DNA of 64,000 bases from Desulfoscipio gibsoniae DSM 7213 (lineage in GTDB: Bacteria > Bacillota > Desulfotomaculia > Desulfotomaculales > Desulfallaceae): NCBI RefSeq assembly GCF_000233715.2, contig NC_021184.1:1946001-2010000 (forward strand). The letters run 5' to 3'. The position numbers and the translations under genes are program-made. Shown piece by piece: positions 27,436 to 43,421 of this stretch. The notes beneath the pieces are model-generated. The model did not search any database, had not been told where the DNA came from, and saw nothing but the letters and a program-made list of their open reading frames with translations. Position 1 is the first letter of the stretch. Each line of letters starts with the position of its first letter.

Positions 27436-28392
27436 ATGGGAAATAATAGAAAGATACCGCTTCTGGTTGTTGCTGGACCTACGGCCACCGGCAAGACCGC
27501 AGTTGCCGTGGAGGTGGCCCTTGGACTTAATGGAGAAGTAGTGTCTGCTGATTCCATGCAAATATATCGCTTCATGGATATTGGTACGGCCAAACCCACG
27601 GCACAGGAAATGAAAGGCGTTCCCCACCATTTAATTGACATTGTTTATCCTGATGCAGACTTTACTGTGGCAGTTTTTCAAAGGTTGGCCAGGGAAGCCA
27701 TAGAAAATATTTATCGTTGTGGCAGAGTACCGTTATTGGTGGGGGGTACCGGATTTTATATTGACGCGGTAATTTACGACTATGATTTCAGTGGCACAGG
27801 GGCAGATGAGGAATTTAGAAAATCTTTGCAGGAAAAGGCTGAACAAAAAGGAAAAAAAGCTGTGCACGAAATGCTTGAAGAAGTTGATCCGGTTATAGCA
27901 TCTCGTATTCATGTTAATGATTTAAAAAGAACTATCCGGGCGCTGGAGATACACAGGCAAACCGGAGATGCGGGCGCGCTGTTTAGAAACAACAATAAAC
28001 TGGCTTACCCGGAGTATAATATATTATTCATAGTACTTTACTACCAGCGGAAAAAACTTTACAGTCGCATCGAAAAACGGGTAGATAAGATGATTGATCG
28101 CGGGTTGGTGACAGAAGTGCAGGGTTTATTGGATGCCGGTTATCATCGTAATTTGGTATCTATGCAGGGATTGGGATATAAAGAAATTGTGGGCTATCTA
28201 CATCACGAGTATTCTTTGGACGAAGCCGTTAATTTATTGAAAAGAAATACCAGAAGATTTGCCAAGCGACAGTTGACTTGGTTTAGACGATATAGTAGTA
28301 TCAAATGGATAGATATGGAGAAGTATGATACAATAAATAATGTTGCGGAAGAGATTAAATATCATATGGCTGAACTTACCCGGTGTCGATAA
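27436..28392 (+). CDS. miaA: tRNA dimethylallyltransferase
   Basis: The 318-residue enzyme starts MGNNRKIPLLVVAGPTATGK with the P-loop, then SADSMQIYRFMDIGTAKP, GVPHHLIDIV, VGGTGFYIDAV and IRALEIHRQTG, all MiaA signatures. It adds a dimethylallyl group to A37 of tRNA, the substrate for MiaB. The ATG here is 6 nt after GGAG; two earlier in-frame codons (TTG 27424, ATG 27430) are less well placed. The last 206 bases plus hfq are duplicated at 39594. This copy is the intact one. Confidence 0.94.
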   Translation: MGNNRKIPLLVVAGPTATGKTAVAVEVALGLNGEVVSADSMQIYRFMDIGTAKPTAQEMKGVPHHLIDIVYPDADFTVAVFQRLAREAIENIYRCGRVPLLVGGTGFYIDAVIYDYDFSGTGADEEFRKSLQEKAEQKGKKAVHEMLEEVDPVIASRIHVNDLKRTIRALEIHRQTGDAGALFRNNNKLAYPEYNILFIVLYYQRKKLYSRIEKRVDKMIDRGLVTEVQGLLDAGYHRNLVSMQGLGYKEIVGYLHHEYSLDEAVNLLKRNTRRFAKRQLTWFRRYSSIKWIDMEKYDTINNVAEEIKYHMAELTRCR

Positions 28393-28701
28393 AAAGAAAA
28401 GTATAAAATACCAACGGAGGGAATTATATGACAAAGCCTCAGATAAATTTACAGGATGCTTTTTTAAACCAGGTTAGAAAGGATAATATACCTGTAACAA
28501 TCTTTTTGGTTAATGGATTTCAATTAAAAGGTATGGTTAAGGGTTTTGATAATTTTACAGTAATTATGGAAAGTGACGGCAAACAAATGATGGTATATAA
28601 ACACGCTATTTCTACAGTTAGTCCTATGAAACCGGTAAATACTTCTTTTTCGGAAGTTAAGCCTGGCTAAATAAAAGGTGTAGGTCATGTCTTTTAGTAT
28701 A
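28187..28701 (+). repeat. direct repeat copy 1 (miaA 3' end + hfq)
   Basis: This 515-bp segment matches 39594-40108 without any gap (constant offset 11,407). By hand count there are about 17 mismatches, near 97% identity. Identity stops abruptly at both ends. The repeats bound the 10.9-kb island. Confidence 0.92.
28428..28670 (+). CDS. hfq: RNA chaperone Hfq, copy 1
   Basis: The 80-residue Sm-like protein has Sm1 ([20 protein letters not shown]-type start, [20 protein letters not shown]) and Sm2 ([12 protein letters not shown], including the YKH motif). It forms a hexamer that binds A- or U-rich RNA. It follows miaA by 35 bp behind a GGAGGG site, the usual miaA-hfq order. A second copy at 39835 differs at four bases, three of them silent; the fourth changes the last residue from Gly (here) to Ser. 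A terminator follows, so transcription of this copy ends at the edge of the island. Confidence 0.95.
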
Positions 28702-30636: not shown

Positions 30637-30648
30637 ATGACAGCTTGA
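30637..30648 (+). other. three-codon leader minigene (Met-Thr-Ala-stop) behind the best ribosome site
   Basis: AAGGAGGG at 30622-30629 is ideally spaced from ATG 30637, but that frame reads ATG ACA GCT TGA. Beyond the TGA the frame stays open to a second TGA that overlaps the ligase ATG as ATGA (30720-30723), a coupling junction. It may be a leader peptide, a decayed small gene or a sequence error. Confidence 0.4.
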
Positions 30649-30719
30649 GGGAATGCTTTGCCTGTTCTATGGTGGATGTTTTCAGAACCTTCGGACTTGT
30701 CAAAAGAGAGGGATATGAA

Positions 30720-32306
30720 ATGACGGTTAGTAAATGGATGCACGTCGGGGTGGCACTGAAGATGAATGCCCGCAATTACCCCGATAAGCTGGGTTGCCAG
30801 GACAAGAGAAAAAGTTATACCTTCAAGGAATGGAACGAGCGGTCGTGCCGCCTGGCATCCGCATTGAAGGACATGGGAGTGGGCTACGGTGAGCGGGTGG
30901 CCGTAATTGCCTACAACAGGGTGGAATGGATGGAAATTTACGCCGCCTGCGCCAAGGGCGGTCAGATTGTCGTTCCGGTAATGTTTCGCCTGACACCGCA
31001 TGAATTTGAGTATATTGTTAATCATTCGGGCTGTAAAGCATTCATTGTGGAGGAACCTTTCGTGAAAGGGGTCGACAGTGTTCGCGACATTCTGACCACT
31101 ATTCCCGAAGGGAATTATATTTACCTGGGTGACGGTGAGGCTCCGGAGGGCTATATCCATTACGAGTCGGTTATGGCTCAGGGCGACCCGTCCGAACCGG
31201 ACATCTCGGTGGACGCCGCCGATCCCTGGACCATTATGTATACATCCGGGACCACCGGCAGGCCGAAGGGGGTTGTGCGGACCCATGAAAATTATCTGGG
31301 CCAGTATTTAATCAACAACATTAACATGGGAGTGCGGCCCAACGACAAGCCCTTGCTGGTCATGCCCATGTGTCATGTTAATTCCATTTATTATTCTTTT
31401 TGTTACACCTATATCAGCGCTCCGGTAATGGTTTATAACATGGTTAGCTTTGATCCTGAAGACCTGTTAAAAACCATTGTCGATTACAGGGTAACCTTTA
31501 CTTCCCTGGTGCCGACCCACTACATCATGATCCTGGCCCTGCCCGATGAAATCAAACAAAAGTACGACACCAGTTGTATACGGCAGCTTTTAATCTCTTC
31601 GGCACCAGCCCGGCGGGATTTGAAACTGGCCATTATGAAGTATTTCAAATCGGCTGAGCTTTGGGAAGCTTACGGTTCCACGGAAACGTCCCTGGTCACT
31701 TACCTGCGCCCGGAAGACCAGTTAACTAAACTGGGTTCCATCGGTAAAGAAGTTTTTGGGTGCGACGAAATCAAGCTGCTGGATGAAAACGGGGAGGAAG
31801 TGCCGGTTGGGGAGGTGGGTGAACTCTACAGCCGTTCGCCGGGTATGTTCAAGGAGTATTGGAAAGACCCCGGCAAGACCAGTGAAGTGTTTCGCGGGAA
31901 GTGGTGCACCGCGGGCGACATGGGCAGACGGGACGAGGACGGTTATTACTACCTGGTGGACCGTAAAGCGAACATGATCATCTCGGGCGGTGAAAATGTC
32001 TACCCGTCGGAGGTGGAAAATGTCGTGGGTGCCCACCCGGCGGTGAAAGATGGGGCGGTAATCGGCGTTCCCGACCAGAAGTGGGGTGAGATTGTATTGG
32101 CCTTCATAATACTGCACGAGGGTTACCAGGCGGGAGATGAACTGGCCGGGGAGATTATCAACTTCTGTAAAGACCGGGTTGCCGGTTACAAGCGCCCCAA
32201 GTCGATCCGTTTTATTAGCGAGGAAGAAATGCCCCGGACCGGCAACGGCAAAATCATGCACCGGGTCTTGCGTGAAAAGTACGGCAAGTGGAGTGACTCT
32301 GTGTAA
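30720..32306 (+). CDS. AMP-forming acyl-CoA ligase of the island operon
   Basis: The 528-residue adenylate-forming enzyme starts MTVSKWMHVGVALKMNARNY. It carries MYTSGTTGRPKGVVRTHENY near residue 175, YGSTETSLVTY near 318, TAGDMGRRDEDGYYYLVDRK near 396, SGGENVYPSEVE and the catalytic MPRTGNGKIMHRVLRE near 510. It belongs to the fatty/aryl acid CoA ligase group; from context an aromatic or unsaturated acid is plausible. The ATG has AGAGAGGG before it; upstream in-frame TTG 30645 would add 25 residues that look unlike the family. The gene is the first large one after the sigma-54 promoter and is clearly richer in G+C than miaA or mutL. Confidence 0.85.
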   Translation: MTVSKWMHVGVALKMNARNYPDKLGCQDKRKSYTFKEWNERSCRLASALKDMGVGYGERVAVIAYNRVEWMEIYAACAKGGQIVVPVMFRLTPHEFEYIVNHSGCKAFIVEEPFVKGVDSVRDILTTIPEGNYIYLGDGEAPEGYIHYESVMAQGDPSEPDISVDAADPWTIMYTSGTTGRPKGVVRTHENYLGQYLINNINMGVRPNDKPLLVMPMCHVNSIYYSFCYTYISAPVMVYNMVSFDPEDLLKTIVDYRVTFTSLVPTHYIMILALPDEIKQKYDTSCIRQLLISSAPARRDLKLAIMKYFKSAELWEAYGSTETSLVTYLRPEDQLTKLGSIGKEVFGCDEIKLLDENGEEVPVGEVGELYSRSPGMFKEYWKDPGKTSEVFRGKWCTAGDMGRRDEDGYYYLVDRKANMIISGGENVYPSEVENVVGAHPAVKDGAVIGVPDQKWGEIVLAFIILHEGYQAGDELAGEIINFCKDRVAGYKRPKSIRFISEEEMPRTGNGKIMHRVLREKYGKWSDSV

Positions 32307-32377: not shown

Positions 32378-32470
32378 TGGTGCCAGGTGTTTAAAGGTTG
32401 AAAGTTGAAAGTTTAAAGATGAAGACGATTAGGGTTAATGGCTCAATAAGTAATTTTCGCTGTATTATTA
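32378..32470 (+). repeat. imperfect direct repeat A (matches 37541-37625)
   Basis: Both units begin TGGTGCCAGGTGTT, contain GTTGAAA heptamers and ATGAAGACGAT, and go on to TAATGGCT-N-AATAAGTAATTTT-N-GCTGTA. They flank the BcrC/BcrB/IorA/IorB-like genes as direct repeats. Confidence 0.75.
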
Positions 32471-32665: not shown

Positions 32666-33844
32666 ATGACTGACCGTAAAACCATTAAAGAAATCTGTGC
32701 ACAATTTAAAGAAATTATTGCCGAGCCTGGTCTAAAGATTCAGCGGCTGCAAGCCGAAAAACCTGCTCCGGTAATCGGGTTTTTGCCCACTGACGTGCCT
32801 GAAGAATTAATCCATGCCTCGGGCGCTTACCCCTTCGGGCTGGTGGCTTATGATGGATTATGGGTCAACCGGGCCGACGCCCACTTGCAGACCTGGGCAT
32901 GCTCTCTGGCACGATGTTCCTTCGGGATGTCTCTGGCCGGGAAGTTCGATTACCTGAACGGGCTGATCATCCCTCATATTTGCGACACCACCCGGATGAT
33001 TTCAGACATTTGGAAACAAAACCGGCCTTACGATTTCATGGAGAACTTTATACTGCCCCGGCAGGTTGATCGTCCCAGTGCCAGGAGTTATCTCACCGGT
33101 GAATTGGGCCGGTTGAAGGCGCGTTTGGAGCAGTTTACGGGCAGGTCTATTAACGGTGAAAAATTAAACCGGAGCATCAACCTTTACAACAAGCATCGTG
33201 CTTTATTAAGAAAACTCTACCAGCTCCATGGCCACCACCCGGATCTGATCACCAACCTGGACTTATTCAATGCCATCAAATCTTCCATGCTGATCCCGAA
33301 AGGACTGCACAACACCATGGTCAGTGAACTGATCAGCGCTGTTGAGCAGCAGGCCCGGGAAAAACAGGCGGAAGATAACCACGGCCGGGTTAGGGTGGTA
33401 GTTACGGGTAAAGTCTGGGAACCCCCGGACATTATGGAGATCCTGGACCAGTCGAAAGTTGTGTGCGTGGCCGACGACCTGTGCACCGGCTACCGCTATA
33501 TTGCCAACGATGCAGCAGAGGATGGCGATCCGCTGGAAACGCTGGCCGTTCGCCAAATAAATCGCCCACCGTCCCCCTGTTTTGTAAACCGCGAGCAGGA
33601 CCGCCTAGAATACTTGACCCGTAAGGTAAATGAGTGCGGGGCAAAGGGTGTGATTTTCCTGCATTTGAAATTCTGCGAGACGGAAAATTATGACTACCCG
33701 CTGCTGCGTGATGCTCTGTCAGCCGCCAATATACCAAGCGTTCGGGTTGAAACGGAGATTGGAAACATGTCCCAGGGGCAGATTAGCACGCGCATTCAGG
33801 CTTTTGCGGAAATGTTGGGGGGAGGCGATATCTATGGCAGTTAG
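32666..33844 (+). CDS. BcrC/HgdB-like subunit, 2-hydroxyacyl-CoA dehydratase family
   Basis: The 392-residue protein belongs to the HgdB/BcrC family. It has IGFLPTDVPEELIHASGAYP near residue 32, WACSLARCSFG near 78, PHICDTTRMISDIW near 105 and FLHLKFCETENYDYPLLRD near 335. The three cysteines in CSLAR, HICDT and KFCE are in the positions that bind the [4Fe-4S] cluster in 2-hydroxyacyl-CoA dehydratases and class I benzoyl-CoA reductases. It overlaps the next gene by 11 bp, so the two should form a heterodimer. No ribosome site is evident before the ATG. No ATPase/activator gene (HgdC/BcrAD) is in the island. Reaction: either dehydration of a 2-hydroxyacyl-CoA or reduction of an aryl-CoA. Confidence 0.8.
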   Translation: MTDRKTIKEICAQFKEIIAEPGLKIQRLQAEKPAPVIGFLPTDVPEELIHASGAYPFGLVAYDGLWVNRADAHLQTWACSLARCSFGMSLAGKFDYLNGLIIPHICDTTRMISDIWKQNRPYDFMENFILPRQVDRPSARSYLTGELGRLKARLEQFTGRSINGEKLNRSINLYNKHRALLRKLYQLHGHHPDLITNLDLFNAIKSSMLIPKGLHNTMVSELISAVEQQAREKQAEDNHGRVRVVVTGKVWEPPDIMEILDQSKVVCVADDLCTGYRYIANDAAEDGDPLETLAVRQINRPPSPCFVNREQDRLEYLTRKVNECGAKGVIFLHLKFCETENYDYPLLRDALSAANIPSVRVETEIGNMSQGQISTRIQAFAEMLGGGDIYGS

Positions 33845-35036
33845 CCAGTCTTTTAAAACAGCCGGCCTCTTGAAAGAGTTAATGGCCAAATATTACGAGC
33901 AGGGCAATTTGGCCCGGGAACAGGGATTACCGGTGGTATGGGTGACCGCTGTTTCCCCGGTGGAGCTGGTTTATGCCGCCGGCCTATTCCCTTACTACCC
34001 GGAGAATTTCGGAGCCCTGGCGGCAGCGAGAAAAGTGGCCGATAAAATATCCCTGGCGGCGGAAGCGCGGGGCTTCTTCTCCGACCTTTGCGGTTATGCC
34101 CGGTGCGGTCTGGGGGACGCTTACGCAAAGGAGCACCCGGTGGGTAAAATCGTGCCGCCGGATTTGTTGTTCAGCTGTAACACCCAGTGCGGCAGCCTGC
34201 AAAAGTGGTTTGAAACCGCCGCCCGCATGTACCGGGCGCCCTATTTCCTGCTGGATGCCCCACTAATCGAAGCCCCCACCACTCGGTTGATTAAAAATTA
34301 TTTTGTTGAACAATTGGAAGAAGCAATCAACTTTTTTGAAGTGGCCACCCGCACCCCTTTCAACTTCGACCGCTTGGCCGAAGTGCTTGCCCTGGCCAAC
34401 GAAGCCTGTCGTCTGTGGAACGAAATATTGGACATGGCGGCATTGAAACCCGCTCCCTTCGGCTTTTTTGACGCCTGCTTCCACATGGCGCCTATAGTCA
34501 CCTGGCGCGGCACCAAAGAGGCGGTAATGTATTACCGGGAGTTGAAAAAAGAACTGGAGGATAGGCTGGACAAAAAGATATACGCGGTACCCGGCGAACG
34601 CTTCAAAATTTACTGGGATCACATTCCAGTATGGCCCAAACTGCGCTGGTTTTCCGAGCTCTTTGCCGAACACGGCGCCCTGGTGGCGGTTTCCCAGTAC
34701 ACCCATTCCTGGGCCTACCAGTTCGATTTGGATCGGCCACTGGAAAGCATGGCTGAAAATTACAGCGAGGGGTTTTCCAACCGTTGTTTTGAGGATCGGA
34801 TTAATCTTAAAACCAGCTTTATGAAAAAGTACCAGGTTGACGGTTTCGTGCTGTTTTCCAACCGCAGTTGCAAGCCCACCGCCTTCGGGCTTTACGACAA
34901 GCGCAGCATTATCAGCGAGCGTACCGGTTTGCCGGGCATCGTCTTTGAAGCGGACATGTCGGATTTACGATACTTTTCCGATGAACAGGTACGCGATAAG
35001 TTTACAGTTTTCTTTGAGCAATTAGCTGCTAAATAA
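33834..35036 (+). CDS. BcrB/HgdA-like subunit, 2-hydroxyacyl-CoA dehydratase family
   Basis: The 400-residue partner has VSPVELVYAAGLFPYYPEN near residue 42, FSCNTQCGSLQKWFE near 114, RFKIYWDHIPVWPKLRW near 256, and FSNRSCKPTAFG near 340 followed by EADMSDLRY. CNTQCxxxxKW and SNRSCKP are the cysteine motifs of BcrB-type subunits, and the resemblance is closer to BcrB than to HgdA. With the BcrC-like product it should build an [4Fe-4S]-containing heterodimer acting on a CoA ester. Start: the ATG at 33834 overlaps the upstream stop by 11 bp and is preceded by GGGGGGAGG; a longer frame from 33690 would run through the upstream gene. High G+C like its neighbours. Confidence 0.8.
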   Translation: MAVSQSFKTAGLLKELMAKYYEQGNLAREQGLPVVWVTAVSPVELVYAAGLFPYYPENFGALAAARKVADKISLAAEARGFFSDLCGYARCGLGDAYAKEHPVGKIVPPDLLFSCNTQCGSLQKWFETAARMYRAPYFLLDAPLIEAPTTRLIKNYFVEQLEEAINFFEVATRTPFNFDRLAEVLALANEACRLWNEILDMAALKPAPFGFFDACFHMAPIVTWRGTKEAVMYYRELKKELEDRLDKKIYAVPGERFKIYWDHIPVWPKLRWFSELFAEHGALVAVSQYTHSWAYQFDLDRPLESMAENYSEGFSNRCFEDRINLKTSFMKKYQVDGFVLFSNRSCKPTAFGLYDKRSIISERTGLPGIVFEADMSDLRYFSDEQVRDKFTVFFEQLAAK

Positions 35037-35132: not shown

Positions 35133-36902
35133 ATGAAAAAAATCATGACTGGCAACGATGCTTTTGCCTACGGTGCCTATCTGGCCGGAATCAATGTTGC
35201 GGCTGCCTATCCGGGCACTCCCAGTACCGAGATACTGGAGAACTTCAGTAAATACCCCGGTGTGTACGCCGAGTGGTCAACCAACGAAAAGGTCGCCATG
35301 GATGTGGGTGTGGGTGCCGCCTACGCCGGCGGGCGCGCCCTGGTCACCATGAAACACGTGGGAATGAACGTGGCGTCCGATTCACTGTTTTACATTTCAT
35401 ACACCGGTATGAAAGGCGGCCTGGTCATCATCAACGCTGATGACCCTTCCATGCACAGTTCCCAAAATGAACAGGACAACCGTCATTACGCCCGGTCCGC
35501 CAAAGTACCCATGTTGGAACCCGCCGACTCCGAAGAGGCCAAGCAATCAGTGAAGGCGGCCCTGGAAATTAGTGAAACCTTTGATACCCCGGTGATTATC
35601 CGGACTACCACCCGGCTGTCCCATTCTTTAAGCATTGTGGAGACTGAGGATGAACCGGCACTGAAGGCTCCGTCCGAACCGGCTGCCTATGAGAGAAATC
35701 CGGTCAAATACGTAATGGTACCGGCATACGCGCACCTGCGGCATCCGGTGGTGGAAGAGCGGCTGAAAAAACTGGCCGAGTTTGCCGAGACCACTGCGCT
35801 AAACCGTATCGAACCGGGCAATGATGAAATCGGGATCATTGTTTCCGGCGTAGTTTACCAGTATGCCCGGGAGGTGTTTCCCAATGCCACCTTCTTGAAG
35901 CTGGGCATGGTATATCCGCTCCCTGACAAGCTAATCCGGGAACTGGCCGCGCGGGTGAAGCAAGTGGTGGTCATTGAGGAACTCGACCCCTTCATTGAAG
36001 AACAGGTACGGCTGGTGGGCATCCCGGCCCGAGGGAAAGATATTTTCCCCAATATTGGAGAATTTAACCCCGGGCGCGTTCGCCGGTGTGCCCAAGAAGC
36101 CGGGCTGATTCCCGGGCCGGCCCAACCGTCCCCCGCCGTGTCGGTACCCCAGCTGCCCGGACGGCCGCCCATGCTCTGTCCGGGTTGCGGTCACCGGGGC
36201 CTGTTTTACGCTCTTCAGCGTTTAAATGCGACTGTATTTGGAGACATCGGCTGTTACACCCTGGGTGCGGCGCCCCCTCTGAACGCCATGCATACCACCG
36301 GCTGTATGGGCGCCAGCATCGGCGTCGTACACGGGGTTGACCGGATAGGCGTGAAGGACCGCACCGTTGCCGTAATCGGTGACTCCACCTTTTTCCACAG
36401 CGGTGTGGCTCCATTGATTAACCTTCATTATAACAACGGTACCAGTACGGTAATTGTTGTTGACAACCGGGTGACGGCCATGACCGGGCACCAGACAAAT
36501 CCCGGCACGGGTAATACATTGCTGGGTATAGAGTCCCCCGTGGTTAAAATTGACGAGCTGGCCCGCGGCATCGGTTTTAAAAAGGTGGATGTGGTGAACC
36601 CGTATGACTTTAAGACCGTGGTGGCCACTATCAAGGACCACCTACAATCCGAAGAACCTTCATTAATTGTGGCCCAGTACCCCTGTGTTTTGTATAAACG
36701 GGAACGGAAGCCGGCCCTGGTGGTGGATGTGGAGAAATGCAACGAGTGCGGCAACTGTTTGTGAATCGGTTGTTCTCCCATCACCAAAGTAGAAGGGGGC
36801 GTCAGCATCAACGCCGCGCTGTGCATTGGCTGCGGTTTTTGTGCCACCATTTGCAATCAGGGCGCCATTAGCCTGCCAAATAAAGAAAGGGGGGCTGAAT
36901 AA
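35133..36902 (+). CDS. iorA: indolepyruvate:ferredoxin oxidoreductase alpha-like subunit, with in-frame TGA
   Basis: This is the TPP enzyme of the IorA type: the N-terminal pyrimidine domain has AAAYPGTPSTEILENF and VMKHVGMNVASDSLF-like segments, and MLCPGCGHRGLFYAL near residue 348 and GDSTFFHSGVAPLINL bind TPP. It ends in a two-cluster ferredoxin domain. After 543 residues a TGA (36762-36764) occurs at codon 544, between the third and fourth cysteines of cluster 1 (C536, C539, C542, C547). The frame then stays open with cluster 2 (C564, C567, C570, C574) to TAA at 36900-36902, which overlaps the iorB ATG as TAATG. It should oxidise an aryl- or 2-oxoacid to acyl-CoA with reduction of ferredoxin. 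The TGA may be a mutation (CGA to TGA), a sequencing error or selenocysteine. Confidence 0.78.
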
Positions 36903-37492
36903 TGAAAAAGAAATTGGATTTCCTGTTTGCCGGAGTGGGGGGCCAGGGTACCATACTGGCCAGCAATATCGTCTCCGAAGTGGGTATGCGCTGCGGGTAT
37001 GACATCAAGAAATCGGAAGTACATGGCATGTCCCAGCGGGGGGGTGCTGTGGAAAGCCATGTGCGCTGGGCGGAAAAAGTCTATTCCCCGTTGATTGAAG
37101 AGGGCAGTGCCGATTTCCTGCTGGCCTTTGAAATGCTGGAGGCGGCCCGCTGGCCCCAATACATGGCACCCGGTTCGGTGGTTCTGGTCAACAACCACCG
37201 GGTGATGCCGCCGTCGGTAAACCTGGGCCAGGCGCAATATCCGGAGGTAAAGGAAATTGAATCCATCATGACCGCGGCCGGCAGTCAGGTAATCTGGGTC
37301 GAGGGCGCAGCCAAGGCGGAAGAATTGGGGAACCCCGCCCTGGCCGGGGTGGTGCTGCTGGGCGTGCTGTCCGCCCGCCTGGACGAGCCGGTGGAAACCT
37401 GGCTGCAGGCCGTGCAGGATCTAGTTCCTGCAAAATTCAAGGAACTTAACGTAAAAGCTTTTCTGGCCGGGCGAGAAATGGCGGCGAAATAG
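36902..37492 (+). CDS. iorB: indolepyruvate:ferredoxin oxidoreductase beta-like subunit
   Basis: The 196-residue product has the 2-oxoacid:acceptor oxidoreductase gamma-domain signatures FLFAGVGGQGTILASNIV at the N-terminus and SEVHGMSQRGGAVESHVRW near residue 40. It pairs with IorA to form the CoA-dependent 2-oxoacid:ferredoxin oxidoreductase, cytoplasmic and oxygen sensitive. Its ATG shares one base with the TAA that ends the iorA frame beyond the in-frame TGA. GGGGGGCTG lies just before. It is the last gene of the operon; the repeat element 37504-37630 follows in place of a clear terminator. Confidence 0.85.
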   Translation: MKKKLDFLFAGVGGQGTILASNIVSEVGMRCGYDIKKSEVHGMSQRGGAVESHVRWAEKVYSPLIEEGSADFLLAFEMLEAARWPQYMAPGSVVLVNNHRVMPPSVNLGQAQYPEVKEIESIMTAAGSQVIWVEGAAKAEELGNPALAGVVLLGVLSARLDEPVETWLQAVQDLVPAKFKELNVKAFLAGREMAAK

Positions 37493-37503
37493 CCTATAAT
37501 TGA

Positions 37504-37630
37504 ATTAGCACTACAGCAAAAAGTATAAGCGGATTTACCGTGGTGCCAGGTGTTGAAAAGTTGAAAGTTGAAAATGAAGACGATCAGGAGTAATGGCTTA
37601 ATAAGTAATTTTTGCTGTAGTATTAGTAAT
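37504..37630. mobile_element. MITE-like element with terminal inverted repeats
   Basis: CTACAGCAAAAA (37511-37522) and TTTTTGCTGTAG (37609-37620) are a perfect 12-bp inverted repeat, roughly extended by AATTA...TAATT outside. Between them lies repeat B, which recurs at 32378. There is no coding capacity. It is consistent with a small non-autonomous element; the second copy at 32378 lacks the left arm. Confidence 0.5.
37541..37625 (+). repeat. imperfect direct repeat B (matches 32378-32470)
   Basis: See the sequence features shared with repeat A: TGGTGCCAGGTGTT start, GTTGAAA heptads, ATGAAGACGATC, and AATAAGTAATTTTTGCTGTAG end. It lies directly downstream of iorB. Confidence 0.75.
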
Positions 37631-39593: not shown

Positions 39594-39799
39594 TTGTGGG
39601 TTATCTACATCACGAGTATTCTTTGGACGAAGCCGTTAATTTATTGAAAAGAAATACCAGAAGGTTTGCCAAGCGACAGTTGACTTGGTTTAGACGATAT
39701 AGTAGTATCAAATGGATAGATATGGAGAAGTATGATATAATAAATAATGTTGCGGAAGAGATTAAATGTTTTATAGCTGAACTTATCCGGTGTCCATAG
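39594..39799 (+). pseudogene. miaA: 3' fragment of miaA (second copy)
   Basis: These bases repeat the last 206 bases of miaA (28187-28392) with about 12 differences, several of which change residues near the end (EEIKCFIAELIRCP in place of EEIKYHMAELTRCR). Everything upstream of the joint is unrelated. The clustering of changes here rather than in hfq fits loss of selection on a non-functional fragment. Confidence 0.9.
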
Positions 39800-39834
39800 A
39801 AGGAAAAGTATAAAATACCAACAGAGGGAATTAT

Positions 39835-40077
39835 ATGACAAAGCCTCAGATAAATTTACAGGATGCTTTTTTAAACCAGGTTAGAAAGGATAATATACCT
39901 GTAACAATCTTTTTGGTTAATGGATTTCAATTAAAGGGTATGGTTAAGGGTTTTGATAATTTTACAGTAATTATGGAAAGTGACGGCAAACAAATGATGG
40001 TATATAAACATGCTATTTCTACAGTTAGTCCTATGAAACCAGTAAATACTTCTTTTTCGGAAGTTAAGCCTAGCTAA
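39835..40077 (+). CDS. hfq: RNA chaperone Hfq, copy 2
   Basis: The 80-residue protein is identical to copy 1 except for the last residue (Ser in place of Gly). The three other base changes are silent, so both copies appear to be under selection to keep function. It has an AGAGGG ribosome site (GGAGGG in copy 1). It lies next to spoVK, as expected for the ancestral right flank. Whether it is transcribed is uncertain, since the only upstream sequence is the miaA fragment and the island end. Confidence 0.9.
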
Positions 40078-40168
40078 ATAAAAGGTGCAGGTCATGTCTT
40101 TTAGTATACTATAGACAATCAGTTTCATTGTTTAATGTGTCTGTATTTAAAACCAGCTGATTGACTTG

Positions 40169-43382: not shown

Positions 43383-43421
43383 AAAAACTCCTTATTACCA
43401 GAGGTGAATAAGGAGTTTTTT
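43383..43421. terminator. bidirectional terminator between the LysR gene and lexA
   Basis: AAAAACTCCTTATT pairs with AATAAGGAGTTTTT around a 10-nt loop; the A and T runs on both sides allow it to serve the two converging genes. Confidence 0.88.

Follow-up and report, generated by a model that had tools for sequence, protein, structure and literature searches.

An in-frame TGA in the first ferredoxin motif of an iorA copy of Desulfotomaculum gibsoniae, very probably a recent nonsense mutation

In an anaerobe that encodes selenocysteine, does a TGA lodged between two cysteines of a ferredoxin motif end translation, or is it read as an amino acid? The question is raised by an iorA gene in a stretch of 64,000 nucleotides from the single-contig genome of the sulfate reducer Desulfoscipio (Desulfotomaculum) gibsoniae (contig NC_021184.1, positions 1,946,001 to 2,010,000; hereafter the window). 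We consider it very probable that a recent nonsense mutation turned an arginine codon into this TGA, in one of the four iorA copies of Desulfotomaculum gibsoniae.

The interrupted iorA frame and its surroundings

The first ferredoxin motif of the window copy reads CNECGNCL, then the TGA (codon 544 of 589), then IGC (Table 1). As the first-pass annotation had claimed, the TGA lies between the third and fourth cysteines of the first cluster, where it ends an ORF of 543 amino acids (35133-36764), and the frame past it encodes that fourth cysteine together with all four of the second motif and runs into a TAATG junction with iorB. Its placement of the motif likewise held except for a start at 36739, which has to move by one base, as the codon of the first motif cysteine begins at 36738. 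When read through, the frame closes with a TAA at 36900-36902 that overlaps the iorB ATG at 36902, and its product matches the IorA equivalog model TIGR03336 over the full length with 686.1 bits (cut-off 650.9). With iorB directly downstream, the locus thus resembles IorA of this family and differs from it in carrying a stop in the first ferredoxin motif, where the homologues have a sense codon. The product formed without read-through retains only the first three cysteines of motif 1 and does not contain two complete ferredoxin motifs. The iorB product scores slightly below the cut-offs of the best NCBIfam iorB models (228.4 of 237 bits).

Table 1. Coordinates of the features discussed (positions in the window unless a genome is named)
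Feature	Position	Strand	Remarks
Left 515-bp direct repeat	28187..28701	+	miaA 3' end and hfq copy at 28428; island boundary
AMP-dependent CoA ligase	30645-32306	+	upstream gene of the iorAB cassette
HGD-D protein	32666-33844	+	upstream of iorAB, same cassette
HGD-D protein	33690-35036	+	upstream of iorAB, same cassette
iorA frame	35133..36902	+	589 codons and TAA; interrupted at codon 544
First ferredoxin motif	36738..36773	+	Cys536 to Cys547
In-frame TGA, codon 544	36762..36764	+	between Cys542 and Cys547
45 codons 3' of the TGA	36765..36899	+	last Cys of motif 1, all four of motif 2
iorB	36902..37492	+	Pfam POR, 119.3 bits; start overlaps iorA TAA (TAATG)
Right 515-bp direct repeat	39594..40108	+	miaA 3' end and hfq 39835-40077
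tRNA-Sec-like tRNA-Cys L011	G000 (own genome) C1:1322398-1322490		
tRNA-Sec-like tRNA-Cys L013	G000 (own genome) C1:2999043-2999134		
tRNA-Sec-like tRNA-Cys L014	G000 (own genome) C1:1798285-1798376		

The order ligase-HGD-HGD-iorA-iorB of this cassette recurs in genome G011 (locus L156), with full-length matches throughout. In the window, the cassette lies within an 11-kb segment that is bordered by two 515-bp direct repeats (96.7% identical, with a complete hfq in each) and carries a sigma-54 regulator, the CoA ligase, the two HGD-D genes, iorAB and an Rpn-family nuclease. This segment looks like an inserted island, with hfq present twice, that could be removed again by recombination between the repeats. 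G+C content is 0.51 at 32-36 kb, which is part of the cassette, versus 0.43-0.45 on either side, and the best iorA copies in six other searched genomes of the genus reach 53-55% identity; the window copy looks like an acquired, accessory one. An 86-bp dispersed repeat flanks HGD-HGD-iorAB (32397-32470 and 37552-37625, 88% identical over 75 bp) and has, among the 40 of 90 candidates that were scored, at least seven genome copies of at least 74 bp including these two. Comparison of the window with itself further revealed near-perfect palindromes at 2819-2854 and 43383-43420 (94% over 36 bp and 87% over 39 bp) that are possibly terminators.

The genome holds three further, stop-free iorA copies of 64, 54 and 45% identity, with glutamate, lysine and glutamate, respectively, at the position of the TGA. 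Each is followed by a full-length iorB match; a seemingly short iorB beside one of them (L153) proved to be an effect of BLAST statistics. Like the window copy, the 64% paralogue (L155) sits behind two HGD-D genes.

The site in homologues and the age of the stop

We tallied the residue at codon 544 in a tblastn alignment of 124 homologue loci, from which eight duplicates (same identity, context and codon) were dropped to leave 116 distinct ones. A sense codon is present in 116/116, encoding arginine (43), lysine (26), glutamate (11), glutamine (8), glycine (8), aspartate (7), alanine (4), leucine (4), asparagine (2) or, once each, histidine, serine and methionine, and the search for Cys or Sec homologues that the first-pass annotation had proposed returned neither a cysteine nor a stop or gap at any of these 116 loci. 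The 13 nearest distinct loci (67-89% identity) all have arginine, encoded by CGN, which supports the simple idea already put forward in that annotation, that an arginine codon (there CGA) became a stop. Because the residue varies among homologues more distant than these 13, arginine is, as judged from the alignment, not essential across the family. In the nearest homologues the codon is CGT or CGC, two changes away from TGA, and CGG is also seen among near relatives; CGA occurs at 1 of the 116 loci.

Stop-tolerant searches in overlapping sets that include the organism's own genome gave matches in 96/120 relatives (at 1e-100), 9/398 genomes of the phylum (at 1e-215) and 4/16 genomes of the family, and none of the other iorA copies found across these sets carries the TGA. 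Seemingly shared TGA codons in G036, G085, G112 and contig 14 of G088, as well as a TAG in G363, are natural terminators at the end of the frame.

Compared with its nearest homologue (L018, 89% identity), the window copy has a dN of 0.055 and a dS of 0.767 before the TGA, versus 0.051 and 1.71 after it, where the 45 codons offer few sites and dS is near saturation. As these 45 codons also align with stop-free homologues, such values indicate that the frame past the TGA is not a product of chance. With L019-L021 as outgroup, private residue changes number 8 in the window copy versus 15 in L018 before the stop, and 2 versus 1 after it. Besides the TGA, we thus found no other decay in iorA, with low dN/dS on both sides and no excess of private amino-acid changes, and for this reason the stop should be recent or, less likely, read through. 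Such intactness would fit a young nonsense allele, though functional read-through would fit it as well. The gene shares with nonsense pseudogenes of redundant families a lone stop where homologues have a sense codon and the presence of stop-free copies in the same genome, but differs from them in being very young, with neither a second lesion nor an excess of amino-acid changes. The genome is rich in ordinary pseudogenes, of which 314 are given in the available text of the report on Desulfotomaculum gibsoniae strain Groll (PMC4148979). Against a nonsense mutation speak the lack of decay in the gene, the full selenocysteine machinery of the genome and the two changes required from CGT or CGC.

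Other readings of the UGA

Background read-through of UGA by tRNA-Trp is well established, and a near-cognate tRNA, be it this one or a tRNA-Cys including those that resemble tRNA-Sec, might leak through the stop and yield full-length IorA at a low level. The undecayed state of iorA agrees with such leakage, as does the existence, next to the ordinary tRNA-Cys, of three unusual ones that resemble tRNA-Sec (Table 1). However, the site bears no mark of programmed read-through, background leakage occurs at any UGA, and apart from tRNA-Sec no anticodon matches UGA among the 50 own-genome loci that ARAGORN scanned around Rfam tRNA and tRNA-Sec matches (150 of 257 candidates scored in the Rfam tRNA search). 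We therefore regard leakage as improbable. As tRNA-Sec alone has a tca anticodon in these 50 loci, an opal suppressor tRNA was also rejected; one weak Rfam match (L197) was not called a tRNA by ARAGORN.

The three unusual tRNAs (L011, L013 and L014) have U73 and the anticodons gca, aca and gca, none of which matches UGA. A second SelB dedicated to them was considered and rejected, given a single match above the selB cut-off. Following the available text of PMC7609411, selC* tRNA-Cys are a described class in which an opal anticodon occurs in some members. A model of the tRNA-Sec-like tRNA-Cys finds matches in 45/60 relatives (at 1e-6), with three matches in this genome only, and the aca anticodon was seen in this genome only among the loci examined. 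ARAGORN called gca in 27 of 30 fetched loci of this kind and tca in one, and found no tRNA in two that show a GCA pattern by eye. The locus L229 (G046 C1:1122100-1122194) is called tRNA-Sec (tca), has stems resembling the tRNA-Cys group and an A before CCA, and could be either a tRNA-Sec variant or one of that group that reads opal codons.

We give very little credence to a genuine recoding event, by which the UGA would be read as cysteine or tryptophan by a near-cognate tRNA (perhaps a tRNA-Sec-like tRNA-Cys), or as selenocysteine with the help of an unrecognised SECIS, so that an arginine position beside an Fe-S cluster were recoded. The review PMC13188914, in the text available to us, does state that some bacterial SECIS elements deviate from the model.

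If the reference sequence had been miscalled or misassembled here, iorA would likewise be free of other decay. The genome report (PMC4148979) gives, in its available text, a combined coverage of 506x for the 4,855,529-bp sequence, Illumina polishing and an error rate below 1 in 100,000, and because of this coverage and error rate such an error is highly unlikely.

Selenocysteine beside the first Fe-S cluster, inserted by SelB and tRNA-Sec, had been raised as possible by the first-pass annotation. The genes it proposed to look for are there: selA (619.5 bits), an adjoining selB (390.6 bits, above cut-off), two selD genes (both above cut-off) and a tRNA-Sec with the anticodon tca. Its expectation for a plain nonsense mutation, homologues with arginine or lysine combined with a lack of Sec genes, hence came true for the homologues and failed for the Sec genes. 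An in-frame TGA stands at the expected site of both selD genes and of three genes resembling formate dehydrogenase, of which one is a split match and stays below the family cut-off. Like such bacterial selenoproteins, the iorA product is a redox protein with a TGA in a genome that has selA, selB, selD and tRNA-Sec, and its frame is conserved past the TGA. Yet the Sec machinery by itself cannot decide the case, and iorA differs from formate dehydrogenase and SelD in having neither a SECIS by the published model nor a Cys or Sec homologue.

As positive controls for a SECIS script we used the genuine Sec sites, five in number, in the selD and formate dehydrogenase-like genes. The script applies the published bacterial constraints as given in a figure legend of PMC13188914, the part of that review it follows, and counts upper stems that have 4 or more uninterrupted pairs; the hairpin has to lie 16-37 nt past the UGA and carry a G within the first two positions of its loop. 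All five controls qualify, their core stems having -6.8 to -11.7 kcal/mol, whereas 3/14 arginine homologue sites qualify with weak cores of -1.2 to -2.0 and, among such uninterrupted stems, no hairpin at the iorA TGA passes. The minimum-energy fold after this TGA, at -11.6 kcal/mol, contains the weak five-pair stem noticed on first inspection (CUCCC/GGGGG) and has the apical loop CAAA, whose first two positions lack a G. Thirteen arginine homologue sites, two row pairs of which are identical in sequence, fold at -4.2 to -19.4 kcal/mol, 11 of them more stably than the iorA site. The shuffle z-score of the iorA site (-1.75) is lower than two of those of the genuine sites (-3.22, -3.13, -1.99, -0.82 and -0.45), which would favour selenocysteine, but the groups are not separated by this measure. 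The evidence against a SECIS rests on the loop and the model, not on stability.

According to the accessible portion of PMC13188914, nearly all selenoproteins possess Cys homologues, against which stands the absence of any Cys or stop from the distinct iorA loci. The terms indolepyruvate, 2-oxoacid and TIGR03336 do not appear in the portion of this review available to us, IorA is not among the eight selenoproteins tabulated for Desulfotomaculum reducens in the accessible part of PMC1794560, and a literature search for indolepyruvate ferredoxin oxidoreductase with selenocysteine gave no paper on the subject as judged by title. On the homologues and the SECIS test, we reject selenocysteine at the iorA TGA, which we hold to be exceedingly improbable.

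Consequences of a nonsense mutation in iorA

If, as we favour, an arginine codon mutated to TGA, translation would stop after Leu543, as follows from the sequence, and the truncated IorA would lack the fourth cysteine of motif 1 and the whole of motif 2. Judging by how two-cluster ferredoxin domains are known to be built, neither [4Fe-4S] cluster should then assemble, and the TPP active site should be unable to pass its electrons on. Separate synthesis of the Fe-S part by re-initiation was considered and rejected: the stretch from the TGA to the TAA has no in-frame ATG, GTG or TTG, so that this part would not be made from the usual start codons. The nonsense allele is probably tolerated, with the affected copy borne on an island and three other iorA-iorB pairs in the genome; these paralogues would presumably compensate and render the loss harmless.

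Were the codon recoded after all, Sec, Cys or Trp would occupy a former arginine position, unlike in the Cys-to-Sec route that, in the available text of PMC13188914, is proposed for many selenoproteins. The nonsense mutation that we prefer would be an ordinary one in a redundant iorA copy. It calls for caution, as a TGA within the frame of an Fe-S protein mimics a new selenoprotein when the anaerobe encodes Sec; here the homologues speak against that reading, and so does a SECIS check in which the Sec genes of the genome itself serve as the standard.
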